A DNA stretch of 64,000 nucleotides, from the NCBI RefSeq assembly GCF_022834715.1, contig NZ_BQKC01000001.1, forward strand, positions 62,001 through 126,000, in the 5' to 3' direction. This document shows positions 9,593 through 58,502 of the stretch, one piece after another. The notes under the pieces are model-generated. The model was not told the origin of the DNA. It ran no database searches and saw nothing but the letters and a program-made list of their open reading frames with translations. The stretch comes from Granulimonas faecalis. GTDB lineage: Bacteria > Actinomycetota > Coriobacteriia > Coriobacteriales > Atopobiaceae. The position numbers and the translations under genes are program-made. The stretch's first letter is position 1. Each line of letters opens with the position of its first letter.

Positions 9593-9611
9593 GCCCGGCA
9601 GGCCGGGCTTT
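9593..9611 (+). terminator. Short hairpin with TTT after the gntR gene
   Basis: GCCCGGC (9593-9599) and GCCGGGC (9602-9608) form a compact hairpin followed by TTT, just after the stop codon and before the manA ribosome-binding site. It may lower read-through into manA. Confidence 0.45.
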
Positions 9612-9633
9612 GGTCCAAGACAAGGAGACGCCC

Positions 9634-10584
9634 ATGACCGCAGACGTGAACCGCCCTGTCCCGCGCGGCGTTCTGGTGCAGGAGCCCTGTCTCGTGCGCA
9701 CCGTTTGGGGCGCCGCCCGCGTGGCCGCCGCCCGTGGAATCGAGGGCCCTGTGGGCACCAGCTGGGAGGTGAGCCGTCATCCCCATGGCGAGAGCCGCGT
9801 CGTCGTGGGGCCGTGGGCCGGCGTGGGGCTTGGGGCCGTGGTGGACGCCGACCCCGCAGGATGCCTGGGCGGCCACGCCATGGTGCGCGGAGCCTTTCTC
9901 GATGCCGCGGAGGCGCTTTCGGTGCAGGTGCACCCGCAGGAGGACTATGCGCGCACCCACGAGGGCGACCACGGCAAGACGGAGACTTGGTACGTGGTGG
10001 AGGCCGAGCCCGGCGCCACCATTGTGGCCGGCACGAGCGCCTCTTCTGTGGAGGAATTGAAGGCCGCCGTGGAAGACGGCAGCTTGGACGCGCTGCTCGT
10101 GCGCGTGCCCGTGTCCGCGGGCGATGTGGTGCACGTGCCTGCCGGAACGCTGCATGCCCTGGGCGCCGGCGTGCTCGCGGCCGAGCTGGGGTCCGACTCC
10201 GACGTCACGTACCGCTTCTTCGACTATGGGCGCACCGACGCCTCGGGCGCCCCTCGCGAGCTTCATGTGGAGCAGGGCCTCGCCGTGGTCGATCCCACGA
10301 GTCGCCCCCAGGTCGTAGGGTGCGGCACGGGGCTGGGGTCTGGCATGCGGGCGTCGGTGTCGGCCGACGGCTACGAGGCGCTTGTGCTCGACGTCTCCCG
10401 CGGCCTGACTTGGGACCCGCAAGGACGCCCCGCGGCGGTGATGGTGGTGGAGGGCTACGGCACCGCCTCGTGGAAAGGGGGCACGGCCGAGCTGGCAACG
10501 TTTGAAAGCGCCTTCGTCCCGGCGGCGACGGGTCCCGTAAGCCTTACAGGTCCCATGCGCCTCTTCTGCGCGGTGGGAGCATAA
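9634..10584 (+). CDS. manA: Mannose-6-phosphate isomerase, class I
   Basis: Zinc-dependent interconversion of mannose 6-phosphate and fructose 6-phosphate; 316 residues. Metal-binding motifs of the cupin fold are visible: LSVQVHPQEDYAR with the adjacent TETWYVVE, and VHVPAGTLHALGAGVL. ATG at 9634 is preferred over a start at 9610 because AAGGAG lies 7 bases upstream of it and the extra residues do not match the family. Being downstream of the GntR/UTRA gene suggests control by a sugar-phosphate signal. Confidence 0.93.
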   Translation: MTADVNRPVPRGVLVQEPCLVRTVWGAARVAAARGIEGPVGTSWEVSRHPHGESRVVVGPWAGVGLGAVVDADPAGCLGGHAMVRGAFLDAAEALSVQVHPQEDYARTHEGDHGKTETWYVVEAEPGATIVAGTSASSVEELKAAVEDGSLDALLVRVPVSAGDVVHVPAGTLHALGAGVLAAELGSDSDVTYRFFDYGRTDASGAPRELHVEQGLAVVDPTSRPQVVGCGTGLGSGMRASVSADGYEALVLDVSRGLTWDPQGRPAAVMVVEGYGTASWKGGTAELATFESAFVPAATGPVSLTGPMRLFCAVGA

Positions 10585-10711
10585 GCCCTCCCCTCTCCGG
10601 ACCTCTTCTCTGCGCCCGCAGGACGAGGGGGACCCGAGTCGCGACCGTTGACGCAAAGCGGGGCGCGAGATTCCGTCGTAAGCAGGTAGGTCTGCCTGAC
10701 CCACAACGCAT

Positions 10712-10812
10712 GTCCGCGGGCCCGCATCGAAGGGCGAATCTGAGAGCGGCCCCGTGCGTAGGCAGATGCACGGGGCCGCTCGAACTGGGCCCGACGATGC
10801 GGGCCCGCGGAC
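10712..10812 (-). ncRNA. Nested-hairpin element E1 (candidate structured RNA)
   Basis: Lies between the convergent manA and C69 dipeptidase genes. The outer 18-bp perfect arms are 10712-10729 with 10795-10812. A 4-bp middle stem is GGGC (10732-10735) with GCCC (10789-10792). The inner 14-bp perfect stem is 10744-10757 with 10768-10781 around a 10-base loop. No T-run follows. Read on the minus strand it aligns with element E2 at 28845-28948, including the internal loop TTC/TCAGAT, part of the outer stem (CCCGCATC) and the 5' flank. Strand is assigned from that alignment. Function unknown: RNA gene, terminator or mobile repeat are all possible. Confidence 0.55.
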
Positions 10813-10839
10813 CCCAGGTCGCGAAGGGCCTGCAGGCAC

Positions 10840-12438
10840 TTATCGGTCGTTCATGTTGAAGCAGTCGCGCATGTTCACGCTCGTGGTGAAGAGCACCTTG
10901 CCGAGCACCTCGTCGGTGGCCTTCTGGATGAGGTCGCAGGTGGCCTGGTTGGCCTTCTCGAGCTCGGCCTGCACCGAGGCCTCGTCTGCGTCGCTGCCTA
11001 GGGCGTCCACGGCCTTGTCGGCGGCCGCCACCTGGGCGTGGCCCTGGCCCAGGGTGGCCTCCTGGTAGGCGGCCACGGTGTTCCAGTTGCTGCCGAACTG
11101 CGCGTCGGCCAGGGCGGCCAGCACGCGCATCTCCCAGTAGAAGGTCTCGGTGGTCACCCGCGGGGTCACGGCGAGGTAGTCCGGCACCGCGTTCACGTTG
11201 GTGAACATCGGGATGAAGGTGGAGTAGGTCATGTCGCCCATGGCCACCCACTGCACGGCGCGGTGGCTGGCGGCCACCGAGGGGCGAATCTGGATGAGAG
11301 AGGTCTCGTTGTTGCGGTTGATGCCGATGGGCCGGTAGAGCTTGCCCTGCTCCTTGGTGCCGAGGGTGCCGTAGGGGTCGTAGACGGTGTCCTGGTAGTG
11401 GCTCGAGAGCACGGTCTTGACGTCCTCCACGGTCACCTTGCGCTCGGGAATGCGGCACCAGGGCAGGTCGTCGCTGTCGGGGCGGTAGGCGGCGTCGGGG
11501 CCGTCGTAGGAGTCGGACGGGTTGAGGTAGCGCTGCATGTACCAGGCGCGCGGCGTGTTGTACACGTGGTCGGCGTAGTCGTGGCTGCCAAAGATCGGAC
11601 GCGGGTCGATGACGCGGGGAAGGCCGCGCAGGCGCTCGTCTGAGGAGGCCCCTGCCATGCCCACGGCGGCAGCGGCGGCCCCGAGCACGGTCTTAGCCAC
11701 AGACTCCTTGGGCATCCCCAGGTAGAGGTTGTTGTCCACAATAAAGTCGGCGAGGTCGGCGCTGCAGCGGTAGTCCTTGCCTTCGCCGAGGGCGTCCACG
11801 AGGTCTAGGCGGTCGATACCCAGCTGGTTGGGCTGGGTCACGTAGGCGTCGTCGGGCACGCGGCGGGCGATCCAGTGGTGGCCGCCCACGGTCTCGAAGT
11901 ACCAGACCTCGTCGGGGTCGCTCACGGCGATGCCGTTGGACTCGTAGGTGCCGTATCTCTCGTGCAGGGCCCCCAGGCGCTCCACACCCTGCCTGGCGCT
12001 CGTGATGTAGGGCAGGCAGATGGTGACGAGGTCCTCTTCGCCGATGCCGCCTGCCTGCTCGGGCGCATAGCCGGGCTGCCCTTCGGTGCCCGTGGCGGGG
12101 CGATAGGCCACCAGGGGGTCGGCCCCTAGCACCCGGGAGTTGGTGGTGATGGTCTCGGTGGCGCTCATGCCCACGTTGACGCTGTTGACGCCGGCCTCGG
12201 CCCACACACCCTCGACGGGGTCGACGTTGGGCATCGCCGTGTAGCGCAAGGGGTTCTCCGGCAGGTTGATGGTGAGGTGCGAGATGACGCAGCGGTAGGT
12301 GCGCGGCTGGTCGGCCGGCTCCACCACCACCATCTTCTTGGCGCAGAACGAGCCGTCGCCGTCGTCCTCGTTGCGGGCGATCATGGTGGAGCCATCGTAG
12401 GTGGCTCCCTTTCCTACGAGCAGGGTGGTGCAGGCCAT
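10840..12438 (-). CDS. pepD: C69-family dipeptidase, cytosolic
   Basis: N-terminal-nucleophile dipeptidase of family C69 (PepD/PepDA), 532 residues. The start ATG at 12438 has AGGAGAGGAGG upstream and gives MACTTLLVGKGATYDGSTM. Removal of Met and Ala, or self-processing, would expose the catalytic Cys3. The conserved ARNEDDG follows, and further family motifs include VDPVEGVWAEAGVNSVNVGMS and YFETVGGHHWIA. An upstream in-frame extension exists but does not match the family. There is no signal peptide, so it acts inside the cell on short peptides. It is divergent from an exported member of the same family at 12801. Confidence 0.92.
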   Translation of the reverse strand: MACTTLLVGKGATYDGSTMIARNEDDGDGSFCAKKMVVVEPADQPRTYRCVISHLTINLPENPLRYTAMPNVDPVEGVWAEAGVNSVNVGMSATETITTNSRVLGADPLVAYRPATGTEGQPGYAPEQAGGIGEEDLVTICLPYITSARQGVERLGALHERYGTYESNGIAVSDPDEVWYFETVGGHHWIARRVPDDAYVTQPNQLGIDRLDLVDALGEGKDYRCSADLADFIVDNNLYLGMPKESVAKTVLGAAAAAVGMAGASSDERLRGLPRVIDPRPIFGSHDYADHVYNTPRAWYMQRYLNPSDSYDGPDAAYRPDSDDLPWCRIPERKVTVEDVKTVLSSHYQDTVYDPYGTLGTKEQGKLYRPIGINRNNETSLIQIRPSVAASHRAVQWVAMGDMTYSTFIPMFTNVNAVPDYLAVTPRVTTETFYWEMRVLAALADAQFGSNWNTVAAYQEATLGQGHAQVAAADKAVDALGSDADEASVQAELEKANQATCDLIQKATDEVLGKVLFTTSVNMRDCFNMNDR

Positions 12439-12800
12439 GGGGCCCTCCTCTCCTGGCGGCCGGGGCCGCCGACGGGTTTGGCGGGGTCTATACCCGCCGC
12501 GGGACGGGACGTCGGCAATGCATAGGCCGGTGACGGCGTGCTGCCCAGGCAGGACAAAAGCAAGGGACAGTAGCTCGTTGTATGCAATTGTCGGCGGTTT
12601 ATATTCGCAGAGCAATGTTTTAGAGGGGACCATTCGCGGATAAATAGGCGCCGTTCACGCAGAATTTCGGCGCGGGGTTGGGTCCTCTGATAGTATGCAT
12701 AAAGGGATACAGACATCTTTCAGGTTGTGGATGAACCGAAAGTCGCCCGTATCCCATGAGGAACGGGCCCGACCTGGCCCGCGAGAGAAGGGGAGAGCCT
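12439..12800. promoter_or_regulatory. Divergent promoter region between two C69 dipeptidase genes
   Basis: A 362-base gap, AT-richer than its surroundings at 12570-12720. On the plus strand, TG-A-TAGTAT (12688-12696) fits an extended -10 box upstream of the exported dipeptidase. On the minus strand an AT-rich run around 12597-12603 could serve the cytosolic gene. No gene is seen in it. Confidence 0.35.
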
Positions 12801-15117: not shown

Positions 15118-15159
15118 CGCCTGAAAGCGATTGAGGGTACCCTCAATCGCTTTCAGGCG
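15118..15159. repeat. Perfect 42-bp palindrome (REP-like family P, copy 1)
   Basis: Perfect palindrome centred between 15138 and 15139. Each arm reads CGCCTGAAAGCGATTGAGGG before the centre. Related copies occur at 36553-36598, 37157-37208, 44749-44879 and 58463-58502, always between genes. Here it lies 80 bases after the exported dipeptidase and can act as its transcription stop. Confidence 0.85.
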
Positions 15160-26516: not shown

Positions 26517-28088
26517 GTGCGCACCATGAAGCACAGCAAAGACAACGACCGGCGCGTGGCGAGTCACATGGCCCGCAAGGCATCGCGTCGCAGCGACGCC
26601 CCCGCGCCTGCCCACGCCGCGTCGGCCGGGCAGGGGAAGGCCACCCACCCCGCCGGGGCCGCCGCCGGCAAGGCGCAGGCCGCCGCGGCCTCGGAGCCCG
26701 TCACCCGCCCCGCGGCCGAGAACCCCTACATCCCGCCCGCGGAGGCCTCCGCCGGCGCCCAGACCGGCTACCGCGCCCCTGAGCCCAACCCCGTGCTCTC
26801 GAGCGACGCCCCCATCGGCCACACCGACCTCGGCTTCAAGCCCGTGCGCGAGCAGCCCGGCTCGGGCCGCCGCCGCCTCGATCCCAAGAAGCGCAACCGC
26901 GCCATCCTCGTGATCGTGCTGGTGTTCGCGCTCATCGGCGCCATGGCGCTCGTCTCGTGGCTCAACCGCAGCGTCACGTTCAGCCTCAACGGGTCCGACG
27001 CCACCGTGAAGGTGGGCACCACCATCAAGCAGCTCATGGCCGACAAGGGCCTCTCCTACACCCCCGGCGACATGCTCAGCGTCAAGGGCGAGGTGCTCAA
27101 GCAGGGCGAGGGCAACCCCTTCTCGGCCAAGGTGGGCGACAGCGACCTTTCCGTGGACGACGCCCGCGCCTACCGCATCCAGGGCGGCGAGACCATCGAG
27201 CTGGGCGACGGCACCGACACCACCGAGCCCTACACCACCCAGGTGCAGGAGGAGCAGCCCAAGCTCGTCATGGACGGCACCTGGGGCGCCGTGAGCTACG
27301 TGAGCCAGTGGGGCCAGGTGGGCAAGGTGGAGATGCGCACCGGCTCCATCTCCGGCGAGACCGCCCAGGGCGACGTCATCCAGGAGGTCCAGAACTGCGT
27401 CATCACCGTCCGCAACGTGGAGCCCAAGGACGGCGAGAAGCTCGTGGCCCTCACCTTCGACGACGGCCCCTCCGAGTACACCCAGAAGTACCTGGACATC
27501 CTCAAGCAGTACGACGCCAAGGCCACCTTCTTCAACCTCGGCGAGAACATCGCCAACTACCCCGACCAGGCCAAGGCCATCGTCGACGCCGGCTGCCAGC
27601 TGGCCAGCCACACCCAGACGCACCAGCAGCTGCCCACCCTGGGCGCCGAGAAGCTCCAGTCCGAGCTCAAGGCCACGTTCGACGAGATCGAGAAGGCCAC
27701 GGGCGTCAAGACCACGGTCATCCGCCCGCCCTACGGCGACTTCAAGGAGCGCACCTGGCTGGAGAGCGGCGGGCTCATGAGCCTCTCGGTGCTCTGGAAC
27801 CAGGACTCCCTCGACTGGAAGCGGCCCGGCGCCTCCACCATCGTGGACAACTCGCTGGTCAACATCACGCCGGGGTCCATCATCCTCATGCACGACGGCG
27901 GCGGGAACCGCGACCAGGACGTGGAGGCCCTGCCCACCATCATCCAGCGCCTCCAGGCCGACGGCTACAAGCTCGTGACCGTCGACGAGCTCCTGGCCAG
28001 CGACCCCAACGTGCCCGAGGACATTGCCACCGGCGACGCCACGGTGCCCGAGGGCTGCGTGTGGCCCACCGAGCTCGGCGACGCCTAG
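26517..28088 (+). CDS. Membrane-anchored polysaccharide deacetylase (CE4/NodB)
   Basis: A 523-residue surface enzyme, probably de-N-acetylating peptidoglycan or another cell-wall glycan. A long polar N-terminal cytoplasmic region is followed by one membrane anchor (about 129-148). An extracellular linker and the NodB domain (about 305-490) come next. Catalytic motifs are LTFDDGPSEYT (metal-binding and base Asp), SHTQTH, RPPYGD and LMHDGGGNR. Start is GTG 26517 or ATG 26526; neither is decisive. The GntR/FCD gene begins 7 bases after its stop. Confidence 0.9.
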   Translation: MRTMKHSKDNDRRVASHMARKASRRSDAPAPAHAASAGQGKATHPAGAAAGKAQAAAASEPVTRPAAENPYIPPAEASAGAQTGYRAPEPNPVLSSDAPIGHTDLGFKPVREQPGSGRRRLDPKKRNRAILVIVLVFALIGAMALVSWLNRSVTFSLNGSDATVKVGTTIKQLMADKGLSYTPGDMLSVKGEVLKQGEGNPFSAKVGDSDLSVDDARAYRIQGGETIELGDGTDTTEPYTTQVQEEQPKLVMDGTWGAVSYVSQWGQVGKVEMRTGSISGETAQGDVIQEVQNCVITVRNVEPKDGEKLVALTFDDGPSEYTQKYLDILKQYDAKATFFNLGENIANYPDQAKAIVDAGCQLASHTQTHQQLPTLGAEKLQSELKATFDEIEKATGVKTTVIRPPYGDFKERTWLESGGLMSLSVLWNQDSLDWKRPGASTIVDNSLVNITPGSIILMHDGGGNRDQDVEALPTIIQRLQADGYKLVTVDELLASDPNVPEDIATGDATVPEGCVWPTELGDA

Positions 28089-28095
28089 GGGCCCC

Positions 28096-28827
28096 GTGGG
28101 TATCGCTCAGCGCATAGAGGCGAGCATCGACGCCGCCTCGTGCATGCACCTGCTCGACCGCGAGCCGCGGGAGCAGGCGGCCGACTGGTGCTACCGGGTG
28201 CTGCTCCACAACATCCAGATGCTGTACATGCCGCCGGGCTCCATCCTGCGGGAACCGGACCTCGCCGCGCGCATGGGGGTCTCCCGGACGCCGGTGCACG
28301 AGGCGGTCAAGCGGCTCGTCGAGGCGCACCTGGTCTTCGTGGCGCCCAAGCGGGCCACGTTCGTCTCCCTCATCGACATGGACGTCCACGCCCAGGGGCG
28401 CTTCGCCCGCACGGCGGTGGAACCCCTGCTCATCGCCAAGCTGCAGGGCCGGCTCACGCCTGGGCAGCATGCCGACTACGAGGCCAACATCGCCCGGCAG
28501 GCGGAGATGGCCCGCCTGGGCGCCAACCCGCGCGACGTGGTGACCGTGGACGACGAGTTCCACCACCTGCTCTACACCCACACCGGTAACGAGCTGGTGT
28601 GGGAGGCCAACCGCATGGTGTCGGCGCAGTTCGACCGTGTGCGCTACATGGGCCTGGTCCTGGGCTACGAGCACCTCATGGTGGGGGAGCACGACTTCCT
28701 CCTCGACATCCTCGAGACCGGCGACGTGCCCGTGGTGGATATCTACGACATGGTGGACGCCCATCTCAAGGGTTATCGCCGCTTCATCGACCGCCTGACG
28801 GCGGACCACCCCGACTACTTCGCCTAG
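28096..28827 (+). CDS. GntR-family regulator, FCD-type ligand domain
   Basis: A 243-residue transcription factor. The winged helix-turn-helix has PPGSILREPDLAARMGVSRTPVHEAVKRL (about 43-75), followed by an all-helical FCD domain. In that domain the metal/ligand residues are expected around DDEFHHLLYTHTGN. FCD members often sense sugar acids such as gluconate or galactonate. That fits the keto-deoxygluconate genes that start 0.2 kb downstream, so it is the best candidate regulator for them, though it is convergent with eda. GTG 28096 lies 7 bases after the deacetylase stop. Confidence 0.85.
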   Translation: MGIAQRIEASIDAASCMHLLDREPREQAADWCYRVLLHNIQMLYMPPGSILREPDLAARMGVSRTPVHEAVKRLVEAHLVFVAPKRATFVSLIDMDVHAQGRFARTAVEPLLIAKLQGRLTPGQHADYEANIARQAEMARLGANPRDVVTVDDEFHHLLYTHTGNELVWEANRMVSAQFDRVRYMGLVLGYEHLMVGEHDFLLDILETGDVPVVDIYDMVDAHLKGYRRFIDRLTADHPDYFA

Positions 28828-28844
28828 GGGCCTTCGTTTCCCGG

Positions 28845-28948
28845 GGCCGCGGCGCCCGCATCGGCGGAGGCAATTCGAACGGGGGTGTGTATCTGGCGAT
28901 ACACACCCCCGTTCTCAGATGCCTCCTTATGATGCGGGCGCCGCGGCC
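28845..28948 (+). ncRNA. Nested-hairpin element E2 (candidate structured RNA)
   Basis: Between the convergent gntR/FCD and eda genes. The outer 18-bp perfect stem is 28845-28862 with 28931-28948. The middle 7-bp stem GGAGGCA/TGCCTCC is 28866-28872 with 28920-28926. The inner 17-bp perfect stem is 28877-28893 with 28898-28914 around loop TGGC. The internal loop ATTC/TCAGA and the outer-stem segment CCCGCATC match element E1 at 10712-10812 when E1 is read on the minus strand. A base-pair swap in the inner stem preserves pairing (GAGCGG/CCGCTC in E1, GAACGG/CCGTTC here). No T-run follows. Confidence 0.58.
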
Positions 28949-29058: not shown

Positions 29059-29706
29059 CTACCGCACCAGGGCCGCCGCCTCGCGCACCAGGCGCTCCAC
29101 GGTGGCGAAGTCGCCGGCGGCCACCACGTCGGCCGGGGCCACCCAGGTGCCGCCCACGCAGAAGACGTTGGGGGCGTCCAGGTACTCGTGGGCGTTGCCC
29201 GGCTTCACGCCGCCGGTGCACATGAACTTGACGCCGGGGAAGGGGCCGTTCATGGCGTGCAGCATGGCGGTGCCGCCCACCACGGAGGCGGGGAAGAGCT
29301 TCACATGGTCCACGCCCAGGTCGATGGCGCGCACGACCTCGCTCGGGGTGGCGAGGCCCGGAACCACGGGGACCTCGTGGCGCACGCACCAGCGCACGGA
29401 GTCCTCGGCGATGCCCGGGCTCACGATGAACTTGGCGCCGGTCTCCACGGCGGCCTCGGTGGTGGGCACGTCGATGACGGTGCCGGCGCCCACGAGCAGG
29501 TCGGGCACCTCCTCTGCCATGCGGCGGATGCACTCGGCGGCGCAGGGCGTGCGGAACGTGACCTCGGCCGCGGGCAGTCCGCCGGCCACGAGGGCGCGGC
29601 CCAGGGGCACGGCGAACTCCGGGTTGTCGATGGTGATGACGGGGATGATGCCGATCTGCTCGAACCGGTCGAGCACGGCGGTGACTGCGGGGTTGTCCTT
29701 GTACAT
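29059..29706 (-). CDS. eda: 2-dehydro-3-deoxy-phosphogluconate (KDPG) aldolase
   Basis: Splits KDPG into pyruvate and glyceraldehyde 3-phosphate; 215 residues, normal for class I KDPG/KHG aldolases. Conserved marks are ITIDNPEFAVPLGRALVAGG, the catalytic Glu in AEVTFRTPCA, VGAGTV, the Schiff-base lysine in DHVKLFPAS, and TGGVKPGNAHEYL. ATG at 29706 is 2 bases downstream of the kdgK stop (on the minus strand), so the two genes form an operon kdgK-eda that turns keto-deoxygluconate into triose phosphate and pyruvate. Confidence 0.96.
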   Translation of the reverse strand: MYKDNPAVTAVLDRFEQIGIIPVITIDNPEFAVPLGRALVAGGLPAAEVTFRTPCAAECIRRMAEEVPDLLVGAGTVIDVPTTEAAVETGAKFIVSPGIAEDSVRWCVRHEVPVVPGLATPSEVVRAIDLGVDHVKLFPASVVGGTAMLHAMNGPFPGVKFMCTGGVKPGNAHEYLDAPNVFCVGGTWVAPADVVAAGDFATVERLVREAAALVR

Positions 29707-36552: not shown

Positions 36553-36598
36553 CTGCGCCTGAAAGCGATTGAGGGCACTCCCAATCAGGCGCAGGGGG
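36553..36598. repeat. Family P palindromic repeat, copy 2 (shortened arm)
   Basis: CCTGCGCCTGAAAGCGATTG at the left is followed by a right arm that lacks the GCTTT segment and ends in CAGGCGCAGGGG. It retains long outer complementarity and sits between convergent genes. Confidence 0.75.
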
Positions 36599-37156: not shown

Positions 37157-37208
37157 CCCCGTGCCTGAAAGCCGTTGAGGGCGCCCTCAACGGCTTTCAG
37201 GCGCGGGG
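37157..37208. repeat. Family P palindromic repeat, copy 3
   Basis: Perfect 40-bp palindrome 37163-37202, extended by five more G/C pairs outside one mismatch. It lies between the two paralogous lipoprotein-like genes. Confidence 0.85.
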
Positions 37209-44748: not shown

Positions 44749-44879
44749 ACCTGAATGCGATTGAGGGCGACTTCCAGCGCGGAAACGTGCCGGAGTCGCC
44801 CTCATCGACGTTCAGGGAGGCGGAATCCGCCCTCAGGTGCGTTCAGGCGCGGAGAGAGGCGCCCTCAACCGTGTTCAGG
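44749..44879. repeat. Array of family P half-repeats
   Basis: A forward half-site near 44749-44770 is followed by three inverted half-sites, each reading CGCCCTCA then, after 6-7 bases, TTCAGG. They start at 44797, 44828 and 44860, a spacing of 31-32 bases. The first forward and inverted units share a perfect 10-bp stem GAGGGCGACT/AGTCGCCCTC. This fills the gap between the convergent tal and Nramp genes. Confidence 0.7.
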
Positions 44880-44945: not shown

Positions 44946-44985
44946 GGCCAATGTGGGACAAAAGTGTCCGACCATTGGGACGGGG
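44946..44985 (-). repeat. Repeat family R, copy near the Nramp stop
   Basis: On the minus strand GTCCCAATGGTCGGACACTT is followed by TTGTCCCACATTGG, about 1.7 units of a 22-base repeat. The same unit occurs 2.5 times after the fsa stop at 53301-53355. Both start within a few bases of a stop codon. Confidence 0.7.
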
Positions 44986-53300: not shown

Positions 53301-53355
53301 TCTGTCCCACCGGTCGGACACTTCTGTCCCAATGGTCGGGCACTTGTGTCCCACA
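53301..53355 (+). repeat. Repeat family R, 2.5 tandem 22-base units
   Basis: Units start at 53301, 53323 and 53345; each reads TGTCCCA, two variable bases, GGTCGG then CACT. They begin 4 bases after the fsa stop. An inverted relative is at 44946-44985. Confidence 0.75.
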
Positions 53356-58462: not shown

Positions 58463-58502
58463 GCCTGAAATCGATTGAGGGCACCCTTAATCGCCTTCAG
58501 GC
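58463..58502. repeat. Family P palindromic repeat, copy 5
   Basis: GCCTGAAATCGATTGAGGG and a near-perfect complementary right arm (CCCTTAATCGCCTTCAGGC), with two or three mismatches, 70 bases after the rlmI stop. Confidence 0.75.

Follow-up and report, generated by a model that had tools for sequence, protein, structure and literature searches.

The 64,000-nucleotide stretch of Granulimonas faecalis DNA analyzed here (the window) contains two intergenic elements, E1 and E2, each drawn as three helices placed one inside the other. What does such an element do? A preliminary description, made from the letters of the sequence, left the choice between a small RNA, an unusual bidirectional stop and a mobile palindromic element.

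Two homologous nested hairpins

The elements, their parts and the neighboring genes are the following.

28845..28948, plus strand: E2, complete nested hairpin (fold z = -11.2; R3 match 108.5 bits)
28845..28863, plus strand: E2 outer stem, left arm (variable part and GCATC foot)
28866..28872, plus strand: E2 middle stem, left arm GGAGGCA (helix 2, which covaries between copies)
28873..28876, plus strand: E2 left internal loop ATTC (conserved core; TTCGA in the family)
28877..28914, plus strand: E2 inner hairpin, terminator-like, 17-bp stem with TGGC loop and conserved apex (family TGCATCtggcGATGCA)
28915..28919, plus strand: E2 right internal loop TCAGA, after the weak U-rich foot of the inner hairpin (reads TTCTCAGA)
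28920..28926, plus strand: E2 middle stem, right arm TGCCTCC, followed by a conserved TTA
28930..28948, plus strand: E2 outer stem, right arm
28024..28827, plus strand: GntR/FCD regulator gene upstream of E2, stop codon 17 nt before E2
29059..29706, minus strand: KDPG/KHG aldolase gene, convergent neighbor of E2
10712..10812, minus strand: E1, complete nested hairpin, read on the minus strand (z about -10; R3 match 87 bits)
10744..10781, minus strand: E1 inner hairpin, 14-bp perfect stem GAGCGGCCCCGTGC
10840..12633, minus strand: peptidase C69 gene, stop codon ~26 nt before E1
9610..10584, plus strand: convergent neighbor of E1, 324 aa, no Pfam match at 1e-5

The matches of model R3 (28844-28948 on the plus strand for E2, 10711-10814 on the minus strand for E1) agree within 1-2 bases with the boundaries first proposed. 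E2 folds with an outer stem of 18-19 bp, a middle stem of 7 bp and an inner stem of 17 bp closed by a 4-nt loop, at an energy of -96.6 kcal/mol compared to -51.8 +/- 4 for shuffled sequences. The stems of E1 are 18, 4 and 14-16 bp, with an energy of -90.9 compared to -53 +/- 4. The fold energies of the two elements, with three nested helices each, lie ~10-14 SD below the shuffles (z about -10 to -14), and the observation of two nested hairpins is thus real. Both fold as single-stranded DNA too.

When the two are aligned in matching orientation, GCATC, TTCGA, the ATCTG apex and TCTCAGAT are invariant; E1 and E2 are homologous nested hairpins. The finer details of the preliminary description are all present: the left loops ATTC/GTTC and right loops TCAGAT, the outer-stem match CCCGCATC and the paired inner-stem change GAACGG/CCGTTC against GAGCGG/CCGCTC. 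The suspected kinship of the 5' flanks (CCTTCG ... CCCGGGG / CCTGGGG) is also real and recurs in several further host copies. Two of its points hold in part. The position between convergent genes is true of E1 and E2 but is no family trait, as many copies lie between tandem genes. The lack of a T-run is correct for the DNA after the full E1 and E2 structures, but a short run rich in pyrimidines/U follows the inner hairpin (TTCTC, CTCTC); some other copies have TTTTC or TTTTTT in this place.

Size and distribution of the family

A covariance model seeded with E1 and E2 (R1) found further copies in the host genome and in G027 and G028, two species of a sister genus; the preliminary description had made its proposal depend on such copies in related genomes. 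Later covariance models, built from 15 and 19 copies, give ~11 clear copies in the host genome, plus weaker, decayed ones, and 7 independent loci in the sister genus. No other clear carrier emerged from model searches of the family (140 genomes), the order (397) and the class (398). The few extra matches outside the carrier genera are single hairpins, and one is an ordinary U-tailed terminator with a GCATC..GATGC apex. Enolase is 93% identical between the two carrier genera and 88% identical to the next nearest. The nested-hairpin family thus seems to be particular to a single small clade, whose kinship is here judged from one protein, enolase.

No Rfam 15 family matched above its gathering threshold, a tRNA being the only match in the window, and the sub-threshold matches of a permissive search were far below their gathering scores. 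An identity with the Collinsella-1 motif is unsupported, since no Rfam family matches. A pattern scan of the genome collection gave 74 matches which look like chance; the 20 that were tested, including two Coriobacteriia loci, fit model R2 unconvincingly. Among the viral contigs there were 24 pattern matches, none of which fits R3, and the search for nested-hairpin copies in plasmids and phages found nothing.

Consensus and covariation

The consensus begins with a variable outer arm followed by TGCAT(C/A), ACGGARRCA, TTCGA, a variable inner arm and the apex TGCATC-TGGC-GATGCA; the 3' half continues with a variable inner arm, TCTCAGA, YYTCCTTA, ATGCA and a variable outer arm. Double changes occur in 23 of the 34 pairs of the family alignment, and the covariation score is 0.52 compared to 0.17 after shuffling. 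Paired cells make up 91.9%, against 72% when shuffled and 37-46% when the structure is slid 1-3 columns. Covariation is seen in all three helices. Alignments of 15 and of 19 members both bear out the claim that the element is conserved in structure, with compensatory changes. Covariation beyond E1 and E2 and conservation of the internal loop, on which that claim had been staked, were both found.

The preliminary description goes too far in calling the stem changes what one expects under selection on structure. The non-Watson-Crick cells comprise 15 G-U and 12 A-C without strand preference, and the greater tolerance of G-U than of A-C that marks selection on a sense-strand RNA is not found. Of 27 copies, 20 have a slightly more stable fold on the antisense strand; with this and the G-U count, the pairing gives no sign of RNA selection on the sense strand. 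In addition the stems outpace the neighboring noncoding DNA in divergence. As G-U and A-C cells are equal, covariation by itself is no proof of RNA selection; it can be generated by template switching too. The conserved core is better evidence for selection than the stem pairing.

It should be noted that the apex is not a general terminator apex, an idea which we rejected: TGCATC-loop-GATGCA occurs only inside family copies in the three carrier genomes. The ordinary terminators of the window have other apices, although the host enolase terminator has a related one.

Position after stop codons

Reading frames marked by GC3 were used to train the codon model with which genes in the GC-rich host were called. 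In 16 of 18 independent loci (10 of 11 clear ones in the host, 6 of 7 in the sister genus) the element begins 6-35 nt past a stop codon of the same strand, compared to 2.6% of random intergenic positions; P is about 6e-24 when the loci are treated as independent. The G027 copy of one such site lies 49 nt from the stop. A copy at xerD is 103 nt from the gene and of uncertain orientation, and a copy ~61 nt after yjdF is reversed, pointing against its gene. The next gene downstream is convergent or tandem. In the sister genus an azaaromatic (yjdF) riboswitch is found upstream of a yjdF-like ORF (L033 1292-1398, L036 2108-2214, L041 2108-2214), and these riboswitch loci are flanked by two nested-hairpin elements facing each other.

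A same-strand GC-rich hairpin shortly past the stop codon is the position of a canonical terminator, and the ordinary U-tailed terminators of the window mostly start in the same zone, +27 to +33 from the stop. Most loci lack a further U-tailed hairpin in the stretch from the stop codon to the next gene, and a U-tailed hairpin called there is often the inner hairpin of the element itself (L043, L138, L042, L038, L044, L055). Unrelated genes lie upstream (GntR regulator, C69 peptidase, class II tRNA synthetase, cation ATPase, Fe-hydrogenase, ABC proteins, enolase), as expected for a terminator but not for a regulon. A resemblance to integron attC sites, suggested by the position after stop codons, was considered improbable in view of the attC core-site consensus and the housekeeping upstream genes.

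With this placement the unusual stop is the best fit among the three original options, and a free-standing small RNA is unsupported. A small RNA derived from the 3' UTR, or a protein-binding RNA, whose conserved loops act in trans would still account for the position in 3' UTRs and for the conservation of sequence at the apex and in the internal loops. In its right arm E2 has CCTCCTTA, which resembles the 3' end of 16S rRNA. However, this anti-SD-like stretch is paired and is CTTCC or TCTCC in other copies, and there is no Rfam family; we find a trans-acting RNA very improbable.

Evolution of core and stems

Four orthologous locus pairs of G027 and G028 were used for estimating rates. The core is identical in 238 of 249 positions (96%) compared to 481 of 552 (87%) in the adjacent noncoding DNA (next 150 nt; P = 1.4e-4), and by this comparison the core is under purifying selection. 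The stems are ~70% identical, with 48 of 160 positions differing compared to 71 of 552 in nearby noncoding DNA (P = 1.7e-6); this rate is approximate as the outer-stem columns are imperfectly aligned in one pair (88aa). Of the nine inner pairs of the EttA loci, six have changed, all with compensation, while the 62 core columns are identical. In the host, E1 and the copy at L058 have a common inner stem in otherwise different surroundings. By these alignments the stems change quickly and sometimes as blocks, a pattern that fits conversion between copies or template switching. Hairpins are reported to arise and persist through template switching (PMC8794818), and a mutational mechanism of this kind probably contributes to the stem change.

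These same observations, with the equality of G-U and A-C, are what would be expected if the palindrome were kept perfect mainly by mutation, through template switching between the arms or gene conversion; covariation would then say little about function, and the elements would be ordinary terminators or relics. This explanation leaves the conserved core, the post-stop placement and the conserved three-tier layout unaccounted for, and no donor copy for the rewritten stems is found among the collected family loci. We regard it as distinctly unlikely. RNA hairpins maintained by template switching (PMC8794818) likewise acquire multibase compensatory changes in one step, but the core outside the stems and the fixed position show additional constraint in the present family.

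The orthologous sites also bear on mobility. In the two congeneric genomes all counterpart sites identified in the second sister species are occupied, intact or truncated, one of them truncated by deletion. Orthologous sites common to both genera are limited to a doubtful pair of ABC proteins (40% identity). At the rbsK locus, G028 has an ATPase-like gene (408 aa; L031 5116-6342) beside its copy of the element; this gene is absent from G027, and the same difference removes the right half of the G027 element. At the 3' end of the enolase gene G028 has an element where the host and G021 have an ordinary U-tailed terminator; the host terminator has a similar GCATC..GATG apex, and at the G027 site the right half of the clamp is lost and the inner hairpin is followed by TTTT. 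The 3' flank of the G021 enolase gene (L152) contains a long nested hairpin of unrelated sequence directly after the ordinary terminator, so multi-tier gene-end hairpins may be common in this bacterial family.

REP/BIME, ERIC and BOX sequences are dispersed intergenic palindromes of ~100 nt, often transcribed at gene ends. The nested hairpins are likewise dispersed intergenic palindromes of roughly 100 nt, and could be a REP/ERIC/MITE-like family which spreads by transposition or recombination, prefers gene ends and uses its structure for mobility as folded DNA. The copies are dispersed with a common core and are near-perfect Watson-Crick palindromes folding equally well as DNA, G-U is not favored, and the sets of copies behind different genes in the two genera show that turnover occurs. 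Set against this are the occupied counterpart sites, the strong orientation bias, the low number of copies, the copy-specific stems and the failure to find clear copies in phage, plasmid or viral collections. The outer arms, which would be the terminal inverted repeats of a MITE or insertion element, differ between copies apart from the GCAT foot. A link to a RAYT-type Y1 transposase is rejected for the sister genus, as PF01797 is absent from G027 and G028; the host has three PF01797 matches, none at the listed element loci. The mobile palindrome of the preliminary description is disfavored by the present sites, which the sister species share, and we find it unlikely as the main explanation; mobility over longer times is possible, given that the copies of the two genera sit behind different genes.

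Other repeats in the window

A second palindromic repeat family, CCTGAAAGCGATTGAGGGC, often occurs as two head-to-head units, which together make a 38-bp palindrome. It has 9 matches compared to 0.03 expected, at 15120-15157, 36558-36576, 37164-37201, 44750-44768, 44861-44879 and 58464-58501, and three of the sites are 48-82 nt past the end of a gene. Another short repeat between genes, GTCGGACACTTYTGTCCCA, is tandem or dispersed (44954-44972, 53313-53353; also L220, L221, L223 and L054), and is sometimes found directly downstream of decayed nested-hairpin copies.

A model for the elements at gene ends

A gene-end function is favored by position and orientation, by the lack of other terminators at most loci and by the exchange at enolase. 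We consider it reasonably probable that E1 and E2 are clade-specific composite gene-end elements in the 3' UTR of the upstream gene, most likely transcription stops and 3'-end protectors. Transcription of the element, its role in ending or protecting transcripts and the recognition of its core are inferred. The inner hairpin would be the counterpart of the hairpin of an intrinsic terminator whose U-rich tail (UUCUC) is weak, and the outer and middle stems would clamp around it and may replace the missing strong U-tract. As both strands fold about equally well the element could work in both directions. The core (GCATC foot, CGGARRCA-TTCGA, GCATC-TGGC-GATGC apex, TCTCAGA, YYTCCTTA) would be kept by selection and, as a conjecture, perhaps recognized by RNA polymerase or an RNA-binding factor. 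A more specific version postulates a class of gene-end RNA whose core is read by a dedicated factor or RNA polymerase, with the stems rewritten blockwise by template switching or conversion; this is conceivable, though doubtful.

The family shares with intrinsic (Rho-independent) terminators, including the U-less hairpin and hairpin-cluster types (PMC8355165), a GC-rich hairpin shortly after the stop codons of unrelated genes and, in several copies, an inner hairpin with a U-rich tail. It differs in having three nested helices, conserved loops and junctions, a weak or absent U-tract, and homologous copies confined to two sister genera. In E1 and E2 no U-tract follows the hairpin directly, with CTCTC/TTCTC only at the base of the inner hairpin; some other copies do have a U-tract after theirs. 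The lack of a proper U-tract counts against the terminator reading of E1 and E2, but U-less hairpin terminators have been reported as common (PMC8355165).

Other points against a gene-end function are that efficient termination at the inner hairpin would leave the right outer arm untranscribed, yet this arm covaries; that an ordinary terminator needs no conserved loops; that only ~10 genes per genome carry the element; and that the yjdF and xerD copies are out of place. The efar-type repeats of Enterococcus faecalis are a repeat family proposed as a bidirectional terminator. By description the nested hairpins are similar, a repeat family with a terminator proposal, but their stems are copy-specific.

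If the gene-end model is valid, the family shows how a signal resembling a terminator turns into an element of several tiers, marked by sequence and found in one small clade. The orthologous sites in the sister species are paired natural cases in which whole stems have been replaced with pairing kept and loops untouched. They bear on the origin of compensatory change and advise caution against taking covariation alone as proof of RNA function.
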